Made by a program: the position numbers and the translations under genes
Notes under the pieces: generated by a model
Seen by the model: the letters and a program-made list of their open reading frames with translations, nothing else
What the model was told of the DNA's origin: nothing
The model's database searches: none
Assembly: GCF_963675975.1 (NCBI RefSeq)
Contig: NZ_OY780939.1
Location: 1,550,001 to 1,614,000, forward strand
DNA length: 64,000 bases
Origin: Halarcobacter sp.
Lineage (GTDB): Bacteria > Campylobacterota > Campylobacteria > Campylobacterales > Arcobacteraceae
Direction of reading: 5' to 3'
Shown here: positions 27,359-44,223 of the stretch, piece after piece
Numbering within the stretch: the first letter of the stretch is position 1
How the letters are laid out: the number at the start of each line of letters is the position of its first letter

Positions 27359-27730
27359 TTATTTCTCCTGTTTGTTTAAACATTTAGGGCAAATTCCTTT
27401 TATAATAATATTATCGATCTCATATCCTTTTAAATCTACATCAATTTTTTCATGTATACACTCTATTTTAGAACACTCATTACAAATAAAATGGGAATGT
27501 TTAGTTTTAGCTATTTCATAATATCTTTTTTTGTCATTTGATTCAAAAGAACTAATTATTGATTCCTCTTCAAACTTAATTATATTTCTATAAAAAGTAG
27601 CTTTATCCATGCTAATATTGTCTTTAATATCTTCATAACATAAAGGTTTGTTTGAAGAGATTAGTATTTCAAGTATAGCTTTTCTTGCTGAGGTAAGTTT
27701 TATTGTTTTTGATATATTTTCTAAGTTCAT
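27359..27730 (-). CDS. Fur-family regulator, probably Zur
   Basis: 123 aa, short for the family. Winged-helix part at residues 10-70 (TSARKAILEILISSNKPLCYEDI, DKATFYRNI), then HSHFICNECSKIEC and a C-terminal CPKC. The two CxxC pairs form the structural zinc site. It is divergent from znuA, with twin TGCAA-N5-TTGCA operators between the two genes and a matching site at znuC, which argues for zinc-uptake repression. Fur or PerR function is less likely from context. TATAAT stands 5 nt before the ATG, so the mRNA may be leaderless. nhaA follows 2 nt behind. Confidence 0.85.
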   Translation of the reverse strand: MNLENISKTIKLTSARKAILEILISSNKPLCYEDIKDNISMDKATFYRNIIKFEEESIISSFESNDKKRYYEIAKTKHSHFICNECSKIECIHEKIDVDLKGYEIDNIIIKGICPKCLNKQEK

Positions 27731-27784: not shown

Positions 27785-27847
27785 TTGCAATTCAGTTGCA
27801 TTAAAGTTTTTATAGATTAGAATTCCAAAAATGCAACTTGATTGCAA
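27785..27847. promoter_or_regulatory. twin Zur-like operators between the Fur-family gene and znuA
   Basis: TTGCAATTCAGTTGCAT (27785-27801) and ATGCAACTTGATTGCAA (27831-27847) are inverted near-copies (15 of 17 bases) and each is a TGCAA-N5-TTGCA palindrome. The first covers a -35-like TTGCAT, a -10-like TAGAAT follows at 27818-27823, and the second lies at the expected start of znuA, so binding would block transcription. A related site stands before znuC. Confidence 0.65.
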
Positions 27848-27859
27848 AAAAGGATAAAA

Positions 27860-28804
27860 ATGAAATTAATATTATTTATGTTGTTAAGTTTAAGTAGTAT
27901 AGTTCTTGCAAAAGAAGTTACAGTATCTATACTTCCTCAAAAATATTTTGTAGATAAAATAGCAAAGGGTAAAGTTGATGTAAATGTAATGGTTAAACCA
28001 GGAGCTAGTCCTGCAACTTACGAACCTAAAACATCACAAATGAAACTTTTATCTAAATCTATTGCATATTTTTCAATTGGAGTTCCATTTGAAAAAGTGT
28101 GGTTAGAAAAATTTGAAAGTGCAAATAAAAATATGCTTATGGTTGATACTTCTGAAGGTATAAAAAAGCTTCCAATGGCGGCACATCACCATTATGAAGA
28201 TGAAGAACATGCAGATGAACACCATGAACATGAAGAGCATGTAGATGAGCATCATGAACATGAAGAGCATGCAGATGAACATCATGACGAACATAAAGAG
28301 CATGCACATGAGGATTCTGGCTTAGACCCACATGTGTGGCTAGAACCAACTTTAGTAAAAATTCAGGCAAAAAATATTTATAACGCTTTAGTAAAAGTAG
28401 ATTCAGAAAATAAAGAGTTCTATAAAAATAATTTAGATAAATTTTTAGCTGAGTTAGATACCTTAGATAAAAAAATTGAATCAATATTAGAAAATTATGA
28501 GCATAAAGCATTTATGGTATTTCACCCATCTTGGGGATATTTTTCAAAAAGATATGAATTAGAACAAATTTCAATTGAAATTGAAGGTAAAGAGCCAAAA
28601 CCTGCACAACTTGTAGAGTTAGTTCAAGAAGCAAAAAAACATGATATAAAAATAGTTTTTGTAGCTCCTCAATTTTCTCAAAAAGGTGCTAAAACAATAT
28701 CTAAGAGTATAAATGGTAATGTTGCTACAATCAATCCCTTAGCTGAAAAGTGGGACGAAAATTTAATAAAAGTAGCTGAAGAAATTGCAAAATCGTATAA
28801 ATAA
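27860..28804 (+). CDS. znuA: zinc ABC transporter substrate-binding protein ZnuA
   Basis: 314 aa from ATG 27860, with a signal peptide (MKLILFMLLSLSSIVLA). It captures Zn2+ in the periplasm. Family marks include KPGASPATYEPKTSQM, DPHVWLEP and MVFHPSWGYF, with His ligands in the latter two. Residues about 107-152 are a His/Glu/Asp-rich loop of repeated EHHEHEEH units, as in Zn-specific members. The start is chosen because AAGGAT stands 5 nt upstream; a TTG at 27842 would lie inside the operator. No znuB or znuC is adjacent; a znuCB pair lies 13 kb away under a similar operator. Confidence 0.92.
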   Translation: MKLILFMLLSLSSIVLAKEVTVSILPQKYFVDKIAKGKVDVNVMVKPGASPATYEPKTSQMKLLSKSIAYFSIGVPFEKVWLEKFESANKNMLMVDTSEGIKKLPMAAHHHYEDEEHADEHHEHEEHVDEHHEHEEHADEHHDEHKEHAHEDSGLDPHVWLEPTLVKIQAKNIYNALVKVDSENKEFYKNNLDKFLAELDTLDKKIESILENYEHKAFMVFHPSWGYFSKRYELEQISIEIEGKEPKPAQLVELVQEAKKHDIKIVFVAPQFSQKGAKTISKSINGNVATINPLAEKWDENLIKVAEEIAKSYK

Positions 28805-30206
28805 ATATTTATTACTTATTCTAATATTTACGCACACTCTTTATGGGTGTGCACTTTGTACCATATATTCCCCTGAAACAAGAGTTGGTGTAACTTTAAA
28901 TACAACACAAACAAAAATAAAAGAAGCTAAACTACTTTGGGTTTTGACTAAAGAGTTTACCCAACAGTTAGAAACTGTTTATGATGTTAATCAAAATAAT
29001 TATTTAGATAAAGATGAGTTAATACCTGTTGAACAATCCCTGTTAGATTATATTGTTCCTAAAAATTATCTAACTCATATCTCTTATGACAAAGTTATAA
29101 ATGAAGAAGAATCTAAACCTTTTAAAATAAAAGAGTATAAAACATTTATTAAAAATTCACTTTTACACTTTGAATATACAATTGAGTTAAATTATGACAT
29201 AGTAAAAGATAATATTTTATTTATAAATGTAAATGATGATGAAAACTATTTTATTTTATTAATGGCAGAAAATAGTTTAAAAATTAATTCTCCCCTTAAA
29301 ATTGATAAAGAAGTAAATAGGCAAAGTGTTGCATTTTATATCTCTTCTTCTGCTTCTAAAAAAGTTATAGATGAAAAGAAAGAAGCTAACACCCAAAATA
29401 TAGAAGATAAAGAGAAATTATTAAAAAAAGAGAATGTTGAAGAAACTTTACTTTCTAAGTATACAAAAAAGTTAAAAGAGTATTTAATAAAAATAGAAAA
29501 TGGTGATGATTTTGCCTTATTTACTTTACTTTTAATCTCATTTTTGTATGGAATAATTCATGCTTTAGGGCCTGGACATGGAAAGTCTCTTGCCTTTTCA
29601 TATTTTATATCAAACAAAAGTTCATATACAAAAGCATTTTTTATATCACAAGCAAGTGCATTTATTCATATTATCGGTGCATTAATATTAGTAGTAGTTT
29701 CTGTGTTTATTTTAGAGTCTATATTAAACAATTTTGTAAATGATTCTGTTGAAATTTTAACTAAAGTATCTGCAGTTCTTATTATGATATTAGCTGTTTA
29801 TATCCTATATAACAAATTTAATCATAAGTCTTGTTCTTGTAGTTCTTGCTCGAGTACTCAGTCTTCATGGAGTACACAAGCACCAAAAAGTAAAACAAGT
29901 TTAAAACCAAACTTTATGAAAAAAGATTTATATTTTGTATTAACAGCAGGGTTGATTCCTTGTCCCGGTACAGTAATATTATTCATCTATGCCTTTATAT
30001 TAAAAACATATTTTGCTGTACTTTTAGCTTCTATTTTTATAAGTCTTGGAATGGGGCTTGTGATATTTATTTCATCATTTTTAGGAGTTAGCTTACAAAA
30101 GGTGTCATCTAAATCTCATGGAATAACTAACTTTTTAGAGATTGCATCACCTGTTGTTATGTTTGTTTTAGGGATATTATTATTTTTAAATGCTTCTATG
30201 GTTTAA
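28785..30206 (+). CDS. DUF1007-NicO fusion protein (putative metal transporter)
   Basis: 473 aa, overlapping znuA by 20 nt and starting at TTG 28785 (no ATG is available near the signal peptide). The N-terminus is a signal or lipoprotein-type sequence with Cys22 and Cys25 (YGCALC). A DUF1007-type domain follows, with an EF-hand-like loop DVNQNNYLDKDEL (67-79). From about 245 on, six helices form a NicO/RcnA-like transporter with HALGPGHGK at 259-267 and a Cys-rich cytoplasmic loop (CSCSSCSS). DUF1007 plus NicO proteins are often under Zur control. Coupling with znuA suggests a role in zinc acquisition, though Ni or Co transport cannot be excluded. Confidence 0.8.
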   Translation: MQNRINKYLLLILIFTHTLYGCALCTIYSPETRVGVTLNTTQTKIKEAKLLWVLTKEFTQQLETVYDVNQNNYLDKDELIPVEQSLLDYIVPKNYLTHISYDKVINEEESKPFKIKEYKTFIKNSLLHFEYTIELNYDIVKDNILFINVNDDENYFILLMAENSLKINSPLKIDKEVNRQSVAFYISSSASKKVIDEKKEANTQNIEDKEKLLKKENVEETLLSKYTKKLKEYLIKIENGDDFALFTLLLISFLYGIIHALGPGHGKSLAFSYFISNKSSYTKAFFISQASAFIHIIGALILVVVSVFILESILNNFVNDSVEILTKVSAVLIMILAVYILYNKFNHKSCSCSSCSSTQSSWSTQAPKSKTSLKPNFMKKDLYFVLTAGLIPCPGTVILFIYAFILKTYFAVLLASIFISLGMGLVIFISSFLGVSLQKVSSKSHGITNFLEIASPVVMFVLGILLFLNASMV

Positions 30207-30232
30207 GTGGAAAAGCCTAGAAGCTTTCCCAC
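30207..30232. terminator. hairpin containing the C-terminal codons of the chemoreceptor gene
   Basis: Stem GTGGAAAAGC/GCTTTCCCAC (30207-30216, 30223-30232; one G-T) with a 6-nt loop. It follows the stop of the DUF1007-NicO gene and includes the last codons and stop of the convergent MCP gene. T tracts are lacking. A shorter version (GGAAAGC/GCTTTCC, 32476-32495) is at the second MCP gene. Confidence 0.5.
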
Positions 30233-31082
30233 TCGTCATCGTCATTATTATTAGGTGTAATAGTATTACCTGTAGAAGGTTTAGATTCAGATACCTTTTT
30301 AGGTTCATTTTTAATAGGTTTAGAAATTTTAGTTTGAGAAACAACAGGCTTAGATGATGTATTGTTTTTATGAGAAGAAGCAGAGATATTATCTTTACCA
30401 ATAAACTCTTTTTCATCAGCTTCTTTAACAATCTCATTTGCAATATCCTGAGTTTGTTCAGCAATATCTTTAGTTTCATTTGCAACAGCAGCATTTTGTT
30501 GAGTTTGTCTATCTAATAAATTAATAGCATCATTAATTTGAACAATACCAGATTGTTGCTCTTTACTAGCAACTTCAACATCAGAGATAAGCTCTAAAGT
30601 AGTGTTGATATTTTTGTTAAGTCCTACATAACCTTTAATCATAATATCAGCAATATTTTTACCATCATTAGCTTTAACTGTAGCACTTTCAACTAAATCC
30701 TTAATCTCTTTAGCAGCTTCTGCAGATCTACTTGCAAGGTTTCTAACCTCTTGTGCAACAACAGCAAAACCTTTACCAGCTTCACCAGCAGTAGCAGCTT
30801 CAACAGCTGCATTTAAAGATAGAATATTAGTTTGGAAAGCAATTTGGTCAATAACTGAAATAGCATCATTGATAGCAGTTACTTGTTCGTTTATACTATC
30901 CATTGCAGTAGTTGTTTGAGTTGCAAGTTTTTCACCCTCAGAAGATGATTTTTTAAGTTCATTTGCATTTTGAGCCATTTTTACTACATTCTCTGTATTA
31001 TGTGAGATATTTGAGGTTATCTCTTCTAATGCTGCGGCTGTTTCTTCTAAACTTGCTGCTGCTTCATTTGAAGCACTGCTTA
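30212..31082 (-). repeat. 871-bp near-identical repeat, copy A (3' half of chemoreceptor 1)
   Basis: Matches 32478-33348 at a constant offset of 2266 bp without indels. I see only a handful of substitutions, several clustered in one patch (CTTGCAAGG here, AGCAGCTAG there). It covers the signalling domain through the stop codon and hairpin. Confidence 0.9.
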
Positions 31083-32241
31083 GCTTATCTACATTTGCTA
31101 AAAGAGTATAAGCACTATTTTGAAGAGTTAAACCATTTGTTTTATTATCAACCAACATCTCATTGATGATATTTGCTAATGTATTTAATCCTTCAGCAGT
31201 TTCACCTTTTGTGTTTTCAATTCTAAATGTGAAGTTTAGTTTTTGGTACTCATTTAATGCTTTTTTTATAGCATTTAAATCATCTGCAACTGTTTTTGAA
31301 ATAGCAAATAACATATCATTAAAAATTGTTTTTAACTCTTCTAGGGATTGATTATGTGTTGATTTTTCAATTTTCTCTTTTATATTACCATCTTTTACCA
31401 ATGCAACTACTCTTTTCACATCTTCAATTAATGCAAAATCTTGTTCTAGTAGTTGTTTTGTATTTTCAATATTTTTATTTACAACAGTAGCAATTTTAGC
31501 TATTTCGTCATTTGAACTATCATCAAGTAGTTCTACAGTTGACTTTTCTTTATTTAAATATGAGAAAAATCCTAATAATCCATCTCTAAATTTTTCAATT
31601 GAATTATTAATATTTCTACCTAGTAAAACTGTGAATACAATACCAATAACAATGATTATAAGTGCAATTACAACAAAAGTAGTAAAAGAATTACTAATAA
31701 GTGATAAGGTATTGTTTTTATTTGCTTCAACCACATGATATGTTTCTTGTGTAAAAAAATCAATTAAATCTCTCATTGTTTCATAATCATTTATATAAAC
31801 ATTGAAGTAGTATTTTTTTGCATCTTCAATATTATTTTCATTTACTAAAGAAAGTAGCTTTTTAGTATGTGTTTGTACTTTTGAGTAAGAGTCATCAAAA
31901 TCATTGAATTTTGATTTGTGTTCTGGCATCTCTTTATTCAAAAGTTTTTCAAATTTTTTAAATCTGTCAGCAACTTGTTGTAAATTGCTATTAACACTTT
32001 CTGTTAATTTCTCTATTTTTTTCTTATCTTCTACATTGAATATCTGAGACATCGCAATATTTGATTGATAAGAGTCTCTATCTGCTTCTAATAATACTGT
32101 TATACCTGCAAAATCTTTTTCTGTTACTTCATTGAAATTTGATTTTACATTATGTATATTGTACGAAATATAAATATTTGAAATAATTGATATTCCAATT
32201 AGTACTAAAAATGAAACTATTATTTTTTGTTTTATACCCAT
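30217..32241 (-). CDS. methyl-accepting chemotaxis protein 1
   Basis: 674 aa chemoreceptor. TM1 is at about 7-27, a periplasmic four-helix-bundle type sensor domain at 28-190, TM2 at about 192-212 and a HAMP-like region after it. The cytoplasmic coiled coil has its hairpin tip at [25 protein letters not shown], which contacts CheA and CheW. The last residues EWESF match the xWxxF tether for CheR/CheB adaptation enzymes. The 3' half is almost identical to that of the receptor at 32483, while the sensor parts differ. The ligand is unknown. The gene converges on the DUF1007-NicO gene with 10 bp between stops. Confidence 0.94.
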
Positions 32242-32477: not shown

Positions 32478-33348
32478 AAAGCCTAGAAGCTTTCCCACTC
32501 GTTATCGTCATTATTATTAGGTGTAATAGTATTACTTGTAGAAGGTTTAGATTCAGATACCTTTTTAGGTTCATTTTTAATAGGTTTAGAAATTTTAGTT
32601 TGAGAAACAACAGGCTTAGATGATGTATTGTTTTTATGAGAAGAAGCAGAGATATTATCTTTACCAATAAACTCTTTTTCATCAGCTTCTTTAACAATCT
32701 CATTTGCAATATCCTGAGTTTGTTCAGCAATATCTTTAGTTTCATTTGCAACAGCAGCATTTTGTTGAGTTTGTCTATCTAATAAATTAATAGCATCATT
32801 AATTTGAACAATACCAGATTGTTGCTCTTTACTAGCAACTTCAACATCAGAGATAAGCTCTAAAGTAGTGTTGATATTTTTGTTAAGTCCTACATAACCT
32901 TTAATCATAATATCAGCAATATTTTTACCATCATTAGCTTTAACTGTAGCACTTTCAACTAAATCCTTAATCTCTTTAGCAGCTTCTGCAGATCTAGCAG
33001 CTAGGTTTCTAACCTCTTGTGCAACAACAGCAAAACCTTTACCAGCTTCACCAGCAGTAGCAGCTTCAACAGCTGCATTTAAAGATAGAATATTAGTTTG
33101 GAAAGCAATTTGGTCAATAACTGAAATAGCATCATTGATAGCAGTTACTTGTTCGTTTATACTATCCATTGCAGTAGTTGTTTGAGTTGCAAGTTTTTCA
33201 CCCTCAGAAGATGATTTTTTAAGTTCATTTGCATTTTGAGCCATTTTTACTACATTCTCTGTATTATGTGAGATATTTGAGGTTATCTCTTCTAATGCTG
33301 CGGCTGTTTCTTCTAAACTTGCTGCTGCTTCATTTGAAGCACTGCTTA
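32478..33348 (-). repeat. 871-bp near-identical repeat, copy B (3' half of chemoreceptor 2)
   Basis: Second copy of the repeat at 30212-31082, same orientation. Similarity begins just after the stop codon, inside the hairpin, and ends abruptly at codons for SSASNEA, where the two proteins become unrelated in detail. Confidence 0.9.
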
Positions 33349-34468
33349 ATTGATCAACATTTATTAGTAATTCGTTTGAACTTTTATTTAGGGTTAATCC
33401 TCTAGTTTTATTTTCAACTAACATATAAGAGATACTTTTTCCAAGACTATTTATACCTTTTAAAAGTTTATCAATGTCACCTTCTAAAGACATAGAGGTT
33501 TTAGCTTTAAAATCATCATTTTGATATTTTATTAAGGTATCTAGTGTATGTTCAATTATATTATGAAGAGTATTTAACATATCATTTAAAGTATCTACTA
33601 GTTTCATAATTGTATTATTTGCTGTAGATGTTGTAACTCTATGGTTAAGATTACCTTTTTTTATCTCACTAACAACATTTTGTACATCTTTGATAACAAG
33701 AGCATCTTCTTTTTTATCTTTTTCTATTTTATCTATATATTTATTGAAACTTTTTGCTATTTGTGCCGTTTCATCATTTGATTTTATATCAATTTTAATT
33801 TGTGTAGAACCCTCTTTTGACAAGTTTTCCATTGCATTTTCAAGGGTCTCTAATGGTATAATTATACTTCTAGATAATAAAATATTAAAAATAAAAATGA
33901 TTAATAAAATTACTATCAACAAAATTACTATAGTTGTAAGGTATTCATTTATTAATTTATTGTAACTTTCTTGTGCTTTCTTAGAGTCATCTTTTAGTAT
34001 TTTGATAATATCAGTAATTGTGAATTTTAAATCTCTCCATGCTTTTAAAGAGATTTTCATATCCTCTTTTTCTAATACTTTTCCTTCACTAACCTTTTTA
34101 TAAAGAGGTTTAGCAGTATTAAGAAAGTTAGTAACTTTTTTGTCAAATTTTTTATATAGATTAGTATTTAATTTTTCGAAGCTATTTGCAGCTTGTTCAA
34201 CTTTTGATATTGCAGTTGTCATAGTTTTTTTTGCTTTTTCAGAGTTTGGGTTTTGGAAAACTACCCCTGATGAAGAGTTGTATAGAAGTCCATTTATAAA
34301 AATTGCATTGATTGTATCGTTTTGTTTAGCAATATCTATAGAGTATTTATATTCTTTTGATAAAGAGTTTAGTGCATTGTATATTACTAATCCTGAAATT
34401 AAAAGACCAATAACAATTAATAAACTATTGATTTTTAGCTTCAAATTAATTGATAAATTATTTAACAT
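32483..34468 (-). CDS. methyl-accepting chemotaxis protein 2
   Basis: 661 aa chemoreceptor with TM1 at about 11-30, a periplasmic helical sensor domain of the four-helix-bundle kind to about residue 170, TM2 at about 173-195, a HAMP domain ([16 protein letters not shown]) and the MCP signalling coiled coil. The tip [25 protein letters not shown] and C-terminal EWESF tether are as in receptor 1. A 241-bp AT-rich gap separates it from receptor 1, so each probably has its own promoter. The shared half implies they feed the same CheA/CheW arrays while sensing different signals. Confidence 0.94.
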
Positions 34469-40018: not shown

Positions 40019-40051
40019 AAAATACAATCAAGTAAAACTTGACTGTATTTT
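40019..40051. terminator. bidirectional terminator between YjbQ and HisI-RibA genes
   Basis: 15-bp stem with a single mismatch (40019-40033 with 40037-40051), loop AAA, flanked by A and T tracts (AAAATACA...TGTATTTT). Serves both convergent transcripts. Confidence 0.75.
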
Positions 40052-40973
40052 ACAAAAAGTGACCCAATTCATCTTTTTTTGTTTTTAAATAGTTTTCATT
40101 AAATTTGTTTGTTTTAGTTATTGCTGGGATTCTTTCAACAATCTCAATATCTGTACTTTCTATAAAATCGATTTTTCTAGGATTGTTTGTGATAAGCCTC
40201 ATCTTTTTTACTCCTAAATTTTTTAGTATATAATCTATAGCCCTATAATCTCTTTCATCTTCTTTAAAACCTAATTTCAAATTTGCTTCTACTGTATTGA
40301 AACCTTGGTCTTGCAAATTGTAGGCATTTACTTTATTTACTAAACCTATATTTCTTCCCTCTTGTCTATGATAAATAACCAATCCACCTTCTTTTGAAAT
40401 AAGTTCTAAGGCTAAATTTAGTTGGTTGTTACAATCACATTTTAAACTACCAATACTATCCCCTGTTAGACATTCACTATGAATTCTTACAAGTGGTGCT
40501 TCTATGGAAGAAAAATTTTTACTCATAATTGCAAGATGTTCTTGGCAACCATCTTTATAAGCTTTTATATCAAACTTTCCAAATCTTGAAGGAAGATTTG
40601 CTATTTTTGATTCAACAATTGTTTTTTCATCTTTTTCTTTTATATAAGATCTAAAAAAACAAGATTTAGCACCTGTATGACAAGCTGATTTACCCACTTG
40701 TTCTATTATTACTAAAACTGTATCTTCATCACAATCAACTCTTAAATCAATCAATTTTTGAATATGTCCACTACTTTCACCTTTTTTCCAAATTCTATTT
40801 TTGCTTCTTGAAAAATAGTGAACAATTTTAGTTTCTACAGTTAAATCTAATGCTTCTTTATTCATATATCCTAGCATTAGAACCTCATTTGTTCCATATT
40901 CTTGTGTTATTACAGGAACTAAACCATTTGATTTTTTAAAATCTATTTCCATTTTTTCTCTTTTCATATTCAT
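40050..40973 (-). CDS. HisI-RibA fusion (phosphoribosyl-AMP cyclohydrolase + GTP cyclohydrolase II)
   Basis: 307 aa, two enzyme domains. Residues about 8-112 are HisI: NEVLMLGYMNKEAL, IWKKGESSGH, DCDEDT and ACHTGAKSCFF, so its metal-ligand cysteines and Asp cluster are kept. Residues about 118-300 are RibA: IHSECLTGDSIGSLKCDC (zinc Cys set C-x10-C-x-C) and RQEGRNIGL. HisI opens the adenine ring in histidine synthesis, RibA the guanine ring of GTP in riboflavin synthesis. Both are zinc enzymes. The ATG at 40973 overlaps the znuB stop (ATGA), tying it to zinc import; ATG 40952 (MEIDFKKS) is an alternative start closer to the HisI norm. Probably a zinc-starvation paralogue or a new purine hydrolase (inference). 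Confidence 0.88.
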   Translation of the reverse strand: MNMKREKMEIDFKKSNGLVPVITQEYGTNEVLMLGYMNKEALDLTVETKIVHYFSRSKNRIWKKGESSGHIQKLIDLRVDCDEDTVLVIIEQVGKSACHTGAKSCFFRSYIKEKDEKTIVESKIANLPSRFGKFDIKAYKDGCQEHLAIMSKNFSSIEAPLVRIHSECLTGDSIGSLKCDCNNQLNLALELISKEGGLVIYHRQEGRNIGLVNKVNAYNLQDQGFNTVEANLKLGFKEDERDYRAIDYILKNLGVKKMRLITNNPRKIDFIESTDIEIVERIPAITKTNKFNENYLKTKKDELGHFL

Positions 40974-41779
40974 TTTTTTATACTTTTAAAAATAAAAACT
41001 ATTAATGCACAAATTGAACTAGCCATAATAATAGATGGGCCTGAACTTAAATCAAATTGATAAGAGAGACTAAGTCCTATAATTGTAAATAAAATAGAAA
41101 GTAAAGCAGAAGTAATCATCATAGAAATTAAACTTTTACAAAAAAAGCTTGATATGTAAATTGGAATTGTAAGTAGGGCAATAACTAAAATCAATCCTAC
41201 TACTTTTATTGAAATTACTATAGTTAAACTTGATAATATTAGGATAAGAGTATAAAAAAATCTTGTTTTTACACCTCTTAGATTCGCATATTCACTATCA
41301 TATGATACAGCTAATATATCTCTATAAAAAACTGTAACTATAATAAATATACAAAGTAAAAGTGTAGACATATAGTAAATATCTTCATTTGTTACAGCAA
41401 GTAGAGAGCCAAATAAATAACTCATCAAATCTGTTTGGTATCCTGGTGTTAAATCAACAAGTAAAATACCAAAAGACATTCCTACTGCCCATATTAGTCC
41501 AATCATAATATCTAAGTTTTCTCTATTTTTGTAACTGGCAAGTGCAATTATAATTGTTACAAATATACAAAATAGCGAGGTTGTTAAAAGCATAGGCAGA
41601 GAAAAAAACATAGCAAGTCCAATCCCTCCATAAGCGCTATGGGCTATACCTCCTGATAAGAATACCATTTTATTTACTACCACAAGTGTTCCAATAATTG
41701 CTGTTATTACACTCACAATTATTCCAGCTAATAAGGCATTTTGAATAAATTCATATGAAAATATATCTAGCATCTGCAT
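40970..41779 (-). CDS. znuB: zinc/manganese-type ABC transporter permease (ZnuB)
   Basis: 269 aa with eight or nine membrane helices, ABC-3 family. GGIAHSAYGGIGLAMF is the conserved segment following the first helices, and KVVGLILVIALLTIPIY the segment contacting the ATPase. It forms the membrane channel for Zn2+ with ZnuC. The start overlaps znuC by 13 nt and the stop overlaps the HisI-RibA start by 4 nt, so the three genes are translationally coupled. Mn import cannot be excluded by sequence alone; the Zur-like operator and the separate ZnuA favour zinc. Confidence 0.9.
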   Translation of the reverse strand: MQMLDIFSYEFIQNALLAGIIVSVITAIIGTLVVVNKMVFLSGGIAHSAYGGIGLAMFFSLPMLLTTSLFCIFVTIIIALASYKNRENLDIMIGLIWAVGMSFGILLVDLTPGYQTDLMSYLFGSLLAVTNEDIYYMSTLLLCIFIIVTVFYRDILAVSYDSEYANLRGVKTRFFYTLILILSSLTIVISIKVVGLILVIALLTIPIYISSFFCKSLISMMITSALLSILFTIIGLSLSYQFDLSSGPSIIMASSICALIVFIFKSIKK

Positions 41780-42516
41780 TTTCCTAACATCTCTAAAAGT
41801 TCAATCTCACATACATGAGAATCAATAGATTTAAATTCATCTTTCATCATGCTAAGATCATGATTTGTCATCTTTTTATTTATGTAAAAAGCCTTTGATG
41901 CATACTTTAAAATTACTGAGATATCATGGCTTACAACAATTACTGGAATTTGTTTATTTAAATCTTTAAGTGTTTCATATATTTGTTCACAGCCACTTAT
42001 ATCTATATTTGAGGTTGGTTCATCTAAGAGTAGAATTTTAGGATTGGAAAATAATGCTCTAGCTATAAGTACTCTTTGTCTTTGACCTCCAGATAAATTT
42101 GATATTTTGTTTTTATAAAAGTTTTCCATTCCTACTTTTTTTAAAACTTTTATTGCTTTTTCTTTCTCATCTTTTTTATAACCAAATATTCTTTTTAAAA
42201 GTGAGTTTTGTCCCATCATAACTATTTCTAGTACTGTAATAGGGAAATTCAGATTTACATTTGTATTTTGTGGTACATAACCTACATTTATAATCTCTTC
42301 AAGATGATTTTTCCCAAATATTTTTATTGAGCCATCTTGAAGTTTGTTTATACCTAAAATCAGTTTTAACAAAGTGGACTTACCTCCACCATTTGGCCCT
42401 ATAATAGTTAAAAAATCATTTTTATCAATTTTAAAATTTATATTTTCTAACACTTTTTGATTTTCATATGAAAAGTTAAGATTGGAAACTTCTATTATGC
42501 TATTACTTAATTGCAT
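41767..42516 (-). CDS. znuC: zinc ABC transporter ATP-binding protein (ZnuC)
   Basis: 249 aa from ATG 42516. Walker A GPNGGGKST, Q loop VPQNTNVNLNF, signature LSGGQRQRVLIAR, Walker B ILLLDEPTSN and switch His in VVSHD. It energises metal import through ZnuB. The start is placed at 42516 (MQLSNSIIEVSN), preceded by AAAGGA at about 10 nt; an ATG at 42558 would lie inside the operator and add an unrelated N-terminus. First gene of znuC-znuB-hisI/ribA. The matching binding protein gene, znuA, is 13 kb away. Confidence 0.9.
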   Translation of the reverse strand: MQLSNSIIEVSNLNFSYENQKVLENINFKIDKNDFLTIIGPNGGGKSTLLKLILGINKLQDGSIKIFGKNHLEEIINVGYVPQNTNVNLNFPITVLEIVMMGQNSLLKRIFGYKKDEKEKAIKVLKKVGMENFYKNKISNLSGGQRQRVLIARALFSNPKILLLDEPTSNIDISGCEQIYETLKDLNKQIPVIVVSHDISVILKYASKAFYINKKMTNHDLSMMKDEFKSIDSHVCEIELLEMLGKCRC

Positions 42517-42541: not shown

Positions 42542-42575
42542 ATGCAACTAAGTCGCATTTTTGAATTTTATCATA
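42542..42575 (-). promoter_or_regulatory. Zur-like operator and promoter of znuCB-hisI/ribA
   Basis: ATGCAACTAAGTCGCAT at 42542-42558 shares its first eight bases with the site 27831-27847 at znuA and has the same TGCAA-N5-(T)YGCA form. On the minus strand, overlapping -10 candidates TATGAT and TAAAAT (42565-42575) put the transcription start at or just before the site, so a bound repressor would block it. Confidence 0.6.
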
Positions 42576-42703: not shown

Positions 42704-43156
42704 ATGAAAAAAATAATTACTCTCTTGGCATTTAGTATATCTATACTTTTAGCTTCTGAATTAAAGATTGAAGATGGATATGTTAGAGCTACTCCTCCAA
42801 ACTTACCTAACTCAGCAGCTTTCATGAAAGTTAAAAATAGTTCTAATGAAACTATTTCAATAGTTAAAGCATCGTCTGATGCATCTAAAGTAGTTGAACT
42901 ACACACTCATCTAATGAAAGATGGTGTTATGAAGATGATTCAAGTTCCAAGTATTGAAATACCAGCAAATACAGAAGTTTCACTTCAACCAGGAGGTTTT
43001 CATATTATGTTAATTGGTTTAAATCAAGCACTAAAAGAGGGTGAAAATATAACTTTAACTCTAGAGTTTTCAAACGGTGAGAGCAAAACACTTACTTTAC
43101 CTGTTAAAACTGTAATGGGTGGTATGAAACACCATGGTCATAATATGCACAATTAA
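42704..43156 (+). CDS. periplasmic copper chaperone PCu(A)C
   Basis: 150 aa with a signal peptide (MKKIITLLAFSISILLAS). DUF461/PCuAC core: YVRATPPNLPNSAAFMKVKN and VVELHTHLMKDGVMKM, the His/Met set that binds Cu(I), and LQPGGFHIMLIGL. A Met/His-rich tail (MGGMKHHGHNMH) may bind a second copper. It passes Cu(I) to the CuA or CuB site of cytochrome oxidase, often with SCO1, which is encoded two genes downstream. AAAAGGATATG precedes the gene. Confidence 0.92.
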   Translation: MKKIITLLAFSISILLASELKIEDGYVRATPPNLPNSAAFMKVKNSSNETISIVKASSDASKVVELHTHLMKDGVMKMIQVPSIEIPANTEVSLQPGGFHIMLIGLNQALKEGENITLTLEFSNGESKTLTLPVKTVMGGMKHHGHNMHN

Positions 43157-43165
43157 GTTATATAA

Positions 43166-43651
43166 ATGACTAAAAATAAAAATGATTTAAAGAGTTTGAT
43201 TCTATCTTCTATAGGTATTATTGCAATAGTTCTTGGATATTTTTTAATTGATTTTAATGCTTTATATCAATCTTTTAAAGGTGAAGTAGAGTTTGTTACT
43301 CAAAAAGAAGATTGTAATTTGCATGAAAAAAGTTGTACTATTACACTTCAAGATGGAACAAGTTTTGAATTAAGTATAACACCTAAAGATATCCCTTTAA
43401 TGAAACCATTAACTTTTACTATAAAAAGTAATAATCCCAACTTGGAAAATTTGTATTTAAATATATATGCTACAAATATGTTTATGGGAGAATTTAATTT
43501 ACCAATAAAAAACTTATCAAATGGTAATTATGAGGCTACAGGTACACTACCTACTTGTCCTGTTGGGGATATGAATTGGAATGCAGAAATAAGAATTGAA
43601 AAATTAAATGAAACAATTGGAGCAAGGTTCCAATTTAAAACGGATAAATAA
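43166..43651 (+). CDS. membrane-anchored periplasmic protein between PCuAC and SCO1, function unknown
   Basis: 161 aa. One N-terminal membrane helix (about 12-28) and a beta-rich periplasmic domain. Four Cys (in EDCNLHEKSC and LPTCPVGDM, the first two flanking a His) and MFMGEF give possible copper ligands. The gene sits 9 nt behind the PCuAC gene and overlaps the SCO1 gene by one base (TAATG), so it almost certainly works with them. A role in copper delivery or thiol chemistry for cytochrome oxidase is inferred; I recognise no characterised family. Confidence 0.65.
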   Translation: MTKNKNDLKSLILSSIGIIAIVLGYFLIDFNALYQSFKGEVEFVTQKEDCNLHEKSCTITLQDGTSFELSITPKDIPLMKPLTFTIKSNNPNLENLYLNIYATNMFMGEFNLPIKNLSNGNYEATGTLPTCPVGDMNWNAEIRIEKLNETIGARFQFKTDK

Positions 43652-44223
43652 TGAGAATGTTTTCAAAATTAAGTATTGTAGTTGTTGTTGCAGTTATTTT
43701 AATAGTATTATTAAAACCTTATGTTGACGAATACAAAGAGGTAAAAAAGTATGACTTTAAAGTAAATACTTTAGATGGAGAAGTAACTAAAGATAGTTTA
43801 AAAGGGAAAGCTTTAGCTGTTTATTTTGGTTATACATATTGTCCAGATGTATGTCCAACTTCTTTAGGTAGCTTATCAAGTGCATTGAAAAAATTTGATA
43901 AAGAGAAAACAGATGATTTTGTAGGTTTATTTATAAGTGTAGACCCAGACAGAGATACTTTAAAAAACCTAAAAGAGTATGCACAATATTTTCATAAAAA
44001 TTTTATAGGTGCCACATCAACAAAAGAAAATATTGATGATATTACTAGTAGATATGAGACATATTATAAGAAAATAACTTTAGAAAACTCTGCTATGGGA
44101 TATTCTGTTTCTCATACTTCATTTATCTATTTATTTGATAAAAATGGAAAATTTGTTGCAAAAGTTGATCATTTTTCAGACCCTAATAAGATTGAAGATA
44201 GTTTAAAGAAAATATTAAATTAA
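43651..44223 (+). CDS. SCO1/SenC-family copper and thiol-disulfide protein
   Basis: 190 aa. An N-terminal membrane helix (6-22) anchors a thioredoxin-fold periplasmic domain. The copper motif YCPDVCP has Cys64 and Cys68, and the third ligand His is in YSVSHTSFIYLFD. FVGLFISVDPDRDTL is also typical. SCO1 proteins metallate or reduce the CuA centre of cytochrome oxidase. The last gene of a three-gene copper-delivery operon with PCuAC; a hairpin terminator follows. Confidence 0.93.
   Translation: MRMFSKLSIVVVVAVILIVLLKPYVDEYKEVKKYDFKVNTLDGEVTKDSLKGKALAVYFGYTYCPDVCPTSLGSLSSALKKFDKEKTDDFVGLFISVDPDRDTLKNLKEYAQYFHKNFIGATSTKENIDDITSRYETYYKKITLENSAMGYSVSHTSFIYLFDKNGKFVAKVDHFSDPNKIEDSLKKILN

Follow-up and report, generated by a model that had tools for sequence, protein, structure and literature searches.

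Paralogs of HisI, PyrC, QueD, and DksA were reported among Zur-regulated genes by Haas et al. (2009), who also showed DUF1826 in the same Zur clusters and found that the HisI paralogs retain their zinc residues (PMC2770081). A review places hisI2 in the Zur regulon of P. protegens and ribA in the Zur regulon of V. cholerae (PMC6103462), and the V. cholerae ribA gene is upregulated in a zur mutant (PMC8248653). In a search of open-licence papers, we found none dealing with an Arcobacter Zur regulon or with a fusion of HisI and RibA. Zur-regulated hisI2 and ribA have already been published, each separately; the fusion itself, which is described here, seems to be undescribed.

The fusion gene and its znu operon

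The fusion gene lies in a window of 64,000 nucleotides (the whole stretch of Halarcobacter sp. DNA that was analyzed), and the same window carries znuA and a candidate zur gene 12 to 15 kb from the fusion operon. The relevant features are as follows.

40050..40973, minus strand: hisI2-ribA2 fusion, 307 aa (HisI at about aa 8-112, a short linker, RibA at about aa 119-307)
40970..41779, minus strand: znuB-like permease of a zinc ABC transporter (ABC-3 family), with a stop overlapping the fusion ATG
41767..42516, minus strand: znuC-like ATPase (ORF called to 42558); the znuC and znuB genes overlap
42542..42558, no strand: predicted Zur box ATGCAACTAAGTCGCAT, a palindrome upstream of znuC
27359..27730, minus strand: Zur candidate, a Fur-family regulator of 123 aa, divergent from znuA
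27785..27801, no strand: predicted Zur box 1, the first of two between the zur candidate and znuA
27831..27847, no strand: predicted Zur box 2, the second of these two
27842 or 27860 to 28804, plus strand: znuA, periplasmic zinc-binding protein with a His-rich insert, outside the znuCB-fusion operon

The 307-aa protein contains a complete PF01502 PRA-CH domain (aa 33-107, covering 1-74/74 of the model, 113.4 bits versus a cutoff of 27) and a full-length PF00925 GTP_cyclohydro2 domain (aa 125-283, 196.5 bits versus a cutoff of 23.3), and it also exceeds the NCBIfam equivalog cutoffs for hisI (PRK00051, 155.9 versus 126) and for ribA (TIGR00505, 241 versus 205.85). Its relatives of solved structure are 1ZPS for HisI and 2BZ0 and 4RL4 for RibA, and an AlphaFold model of the fusion, made from a 9-row alignment, had a mean pLDDT of 61 and was set aside for that reason. 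The original prediction of a single protein with a complete HisI and a complete RibA domain, starting inside the znuB stop, was borne out, since both domains score above curated cutoffs and the fusion ATG and the znuB stop do overlap. The second ATG (aa 8), which is the start used by most relatives, may be the real start of the gene.

The operon has the order znuC-znuB-hisI2ribA2 and lies downstream of a 17-bp palindrome. The same prediction had placed the gene in a znu operon with a Zur-like operator, and the palindrome ahead of znuC is indeed a predicted site of this kind. The palindrome WTGCAAYTNARTTGCAW recurs in the zur-znuA intergenic region and in the interval separating dksA from DUF34. 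The predicted Zur box overlaps the first ATG of the called znuC ORF. A start at 42516, preceded by AAGGA, is therefore the probable one for znuC and would give a protein of 249 aa (orthologs have 248-250 aa). The genome encodes five Fur-family proteins, and the regulator beside znuA is predicted to be Zur by its family, position, and target set only. A promoter and terminator scan gave a result at chance level.

Other features of this genome were noted alongside the operon. At C1:633950-633966 (L013, L030), a perfect predicted Zur box is flanked by a dksA gene, whose product has four Cys, and by a gene for a 274-aa protein weakly matching DUF34/NIF3; it points to a candidate for a further Zur target. 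Immediately after znuA, at 28785-30206, there is a NicO-family membrane protein (473 aa) that is possibly co-operonic with it. Divergent from the znuC operon, at 42704-44223, are genes for PCuAC, a 161-aa protein without a Pfam match, and an SCO-like protein; this trio recurs in genome G068, close to the fusion, and in G055, close to the znu operon. Two adjacent chemoreceptor-like genes (30217-32241 and 32483-34468) have near-identical C-terminal halves and different N-terminal halves, a pattern like that of recent duplication or gene conversion.

Housekeeping copies, conserved residues, and the box in relatives

The fusion is a spare copy because hisIE and ribA are both present elsewhere in the same complete 3.27-Mb genome. 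The hisIE gene encodes a protein of 227 aa (L028:6055-6738), while a stand-alone ribA of 191 aa adjoins hemB (L029:5088-5663), and a RibBA-like protein is encoded as well. A genome with no other hisI or ribA, together with expression independent of zinc, was the outcome that the original prediction had named as counting against it, and the search found both genes. In a tree of only 109 columns, HisI2 formed one clade apart from Arcobacteraceae HisIE with support of 100/92 when five long branches were left out; when these were kept, one Helicobacter row fell into the HisI2 clade. The RibA2 clade had an SH-aLRT value of 99. The idea that HisI2 is a recent duplicate of Arcobacter HisIE is unsupported, HisI2 forming a clade of its own.

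The operator was followed through the relatives with a box pattern derived from four sites of this same genome, to which regulator binding is presumed. The exact pattern WTGCAACTWAGTTGCAW occurred in 63 of 104 Arcobacteraceae genomes, and a control pattern read backwards occurred in 0 of 104. When at most one mismatch was allowed, a box lay no more than 300 bp from the gene, or ahead of its operon's first gene, at 24 of 26 HisI2 or fused loci; G084, in which the box precedes znuA at the start of the operon, brings this to 25 of 26, and L070 has no good box. For the HisI2 set, the number of such matches expected from shuffled sequences was 0.01. No box was found at any of 28 hisIE genes, even with up to two mismatches allowed, and no housekeeping ribA gene had one within 300 bp. 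Stand-alone ribA genes fall into two groups, boxed paralogs and unboxed housekeeping copies, the latter often linked to hemB. The upstream box of the fusion, predicted and presumably Zur bound, is of a type common to znu and zur.

Both halves are well conserved. The HisI residues D85, C86, D87, D89, and C109 (1ZPS chain positions) were kept in 26 of 26 paralogs, and the third Cys (position 102, in the ACH motif) was conserved in the alignments. In the RibA half, Cys54/65/67, Tyr105, Asp126, and Arg128 (E. coli numbering) were kept in 19 of 19 fused proteins. In the solved enzymes, three HisI Cys residues bind zinc and three Asp residues bind metal, the three RibA cysteines hold zinc, and Tyr105, Asp126, and Arg128 are catalytic. 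Values of dN/dS ranged from 0.02 to 0.24 for both halves in seven pairs, which amounts to purifying selection. Compared with Arcobacteraceae HisIE, HisI2 carries one extra residue between Cys residues that serve as metal ligands, a spacing also present in Campylobacter and Spirochaetia HisI. The DksA paralogs beside fusion loci likewise retain four zinc Cys residues.

Loss of ligands, the mark of a zinc-independent (C-) paralog such as FolE2 or DksA2, was not seen; all ligands are kept, and the fusion is therefore not a zinc-free type of backup. The earlier caution that simple zinc independence was unlikely, made because the zinc Cys sets are kept, gains force from the invariance of the ligands. 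From the residues alone, the response would not be zinc independence; the enzyme would be made in larger amounts, bind zinc more tightly, or hold a different metal in the unchanged ligands.

Distribution, losses, and neighbors

Among 104 Arcobacteraceae genomes, 16 carry the fusion and six have a stand-alone HisI2. Outside this family, the fusion was found in a few other Campylobacterales: L066 to L068 and, when the order was sampled evenly, two genomes from another family. On the plasmid pAFAEC of Aliarcobacter faecis (L273, NZ_CP053838.1), the fusion has a second znuABC and a Tn3 transposase as neighbors. Because the spread is patchy and a plasmid copy exists, horizontal transfer of the fusion is likely, and the trees and losses fit a single fusion event followed by later losses. 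In the gene table of pAFAEC the fusion is entered merely as a short ribA, an example of how annotation can mask one half of the fusion.

Several relatives have lost or replaced parts of the locus. In G068 the znuCB genes are deleted except for a ZnuB scrap (E=0.004), and the box and the fusion are retained; G062 likewise has the box and the fusion without znuCB. The HisI half is gone from G055 and G063, where RibA2 reads in frame from the start context of the fusion and is nested among the fused proteins in the tree. Conversely, G002 and G006 have an intact HisI2 followed by a RibA2 remnant (E=2e-7 and 1e-8, respectively), and each has another ribA carrying a perfect box (L254 and L245, respectively). 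G036 and G091 pair HisI2 with a boxed RibA that was recruited separately and belongs to a different RibA clade. These arrangements suggest that the two halves are kept as separate, replaceable activities, as would fit backup isozymes.

The neighbors of HisI2 and fusion loci vary, and many are linked to zinc: znuCB or ZnuABC, PyrC (TIGR00856), a QueD-type PTPS, DUF1826, DksA, COG0523, and TonB receptors. This set agrees with the published set of Zur clusters (PMC2770081).

Individual loci differ in composition. The zinc island of pAFAEC holds znuABC-like genes, PTPS (QueD-like), pyrC, hisI2-ribA2, and DUF1826, flanked by the Tn3 transposase and a recombinase. A boxed operon of a Sulfurimonas MAG (L066:7021-12490) encodes a metallo-beta-lactamase-fold protein, then hisI2-ribA2, and then cobalamin-dependent methionine synthase, which is a zinc enzyme as well. 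A third, degenerate RibA-like protein with 35-40% identity occurs in Zur-type islands (L067:6234-6881, minus strand; L068:6236-6793, minus strand; L070:3038-3610, plus strand); its zinc Cys set and much of its active site are altered, and it is possibly a zinc-free or noncatalytic relative. A CysS-ThrS-HisI-RibA gene run of two marine Alphaproteobacteria (L085 and L125) was considered as a possible independent Zur cluster; no box was recognized by eye, and as each small genome yielded a single HisI, the run may be a housekeeping cluster. Two "full-length" Bacteroidota matches (L119 and L124) were rejected as fusions, both being RibBA.

A predicted backup at low zinc, its rivals, and known systems

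Taken together, these comparisons point, with a probability of roughly 0.86, to a Zur-derepressed pair of backup isozymes, HisI2 and RibA2, carried on one chain and keeping both steps running at low zinc. We infer that Zur binds the palindrome, that zinc limitation induces expression, and that the protein is catalytically active, as well as the way in which it secures metal. When zinc is plentiful, Zn-Zur would sit on the palindrome upstream of znuC and the operon would be repressed; when zinc runs short, the fusion would be produced along with znuCB. The fusion would then sustain the conversion of PR-AMP to ProFAR (histidine) and of GTP to DARPP (riboflavin) while the housekeeping enzymes are undermetallated, and it could do so by extra or tighter metal-binding sites or by a different metal. 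The zinc starvation isoform proposed at the outset now has strong comparative genomic support, namely, the housekeeping copies, the conserved Zur-type operator, the Zur cluster neighbors, and retention without znuCB. It is a more tentative and rather doubtful step to a metal-tuned bifunctional isozyme, with the same ligands but holding zinc more tightly, or using Fe, Mn, or Co, or being supplied with metal by a chaperone or between its domains; if this were so, both cyclohydrolase steps would be active at zinc levels that leave the housekeeping enzymes empty.

Both domains appear fully functional, as they would be if the fusion were simply the cell's own HisI and RibA, lying downstream of znuB by chance. 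We rejected this housekeeping reading as highly improbable, however, given that complete, separate hisIE and ribA genes are present elsewhere in the genome, that most Arcobacteraceae live without the fusion, and that the box stays with the fusion where znuCB has been lost. HisI and RibA domains are both zinc hydrolases that open purine rings, and this likeness, together with the one-residue insertion at the Cys ligands of HisI2, speaks for the alternative first offered, a new activity on a purine nucleotide, taken here as a joint one for which both domains are required. That alternative has fared badly and is very unlikely to be correct. The ligands and the tested catalytic residues are unchanged, and the HisI2 spacing is not peculiar to the fusion but shared with Campylobacter and Spirochaetia. 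Moreover, either half has been lost in relatives while the other is intact, which implies that the halves work independently and counts against a joint reaction, as does the pairing of HisI2 with a separately recruited, boxed RibA in G036 and G091.

It is also conceivable, although unlikely, that zinc starvation boosts histidine and flavin for zinc chelation, secretion, or redox use and not for enzyme replacement. Zur control and the retained zinc sites are compatible with such extra flux, and Haas et al. raised a higher protein copy number as another possibility (PMC2770081). However, the boxed genes represent zinc enzyme steps (hisI, ribA, pyrC, queD, and dksA paralogs) and not whole histidine or riboflavin pathways, and we noticed no genes for metallophores at these loci.

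Under the backup isozyme reading, the known strategy of zinc sparing would also operate in Campylobacterota, through a predicted Zur operator of distinctive sequence and with a candidate regulon. The fusion offers a natural test of why Zur-induced paralogs such as HisI2 retain zinc ligands, and the fused, split, and half-lost versions in relatives, together with the independently recruited RibA, form a ready comparative set.

Among the closest known counterparts is the hisI2 gene of Pseudomonas and other gamma- and betaproteobacteria (PMC2770081; PMC6103462), which is likewise a second PRA-CH copy with a Zur box and retained zinc ligands, in clusters with COG0523, DksA, PyrC, QueD, and DUF1826. 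That gene stands alone, whereas in Campylobacterota HisI2 is fused to RibA2 and has a different operator sequence. In V. cholerae, the GTP cyclohydrolase II gene vc1263 is under Zur control (PMC6103462; PMC8248653), as is predicted here, but it too stands alone, whereas the Campylobacterota RibA paralog is fused behind HisI2. HisIE (PR-AMP cyclohydrolase/PR-ATP pyrophosphatase) shares the N-terminal HisI domain and the same ligands; its C-terminal domain is HisE, whereas the fusion has RibA in that place and its HisI2 belongs to a separate clade. Finally, FolE2 and other zinc-free (C-) backup paralogs resemble the fusion in the Zur-controlled replacement of zinc enzymes, predicted in our case, but they dispense with zinc, whereas the fusion keeps its zinc ligands.
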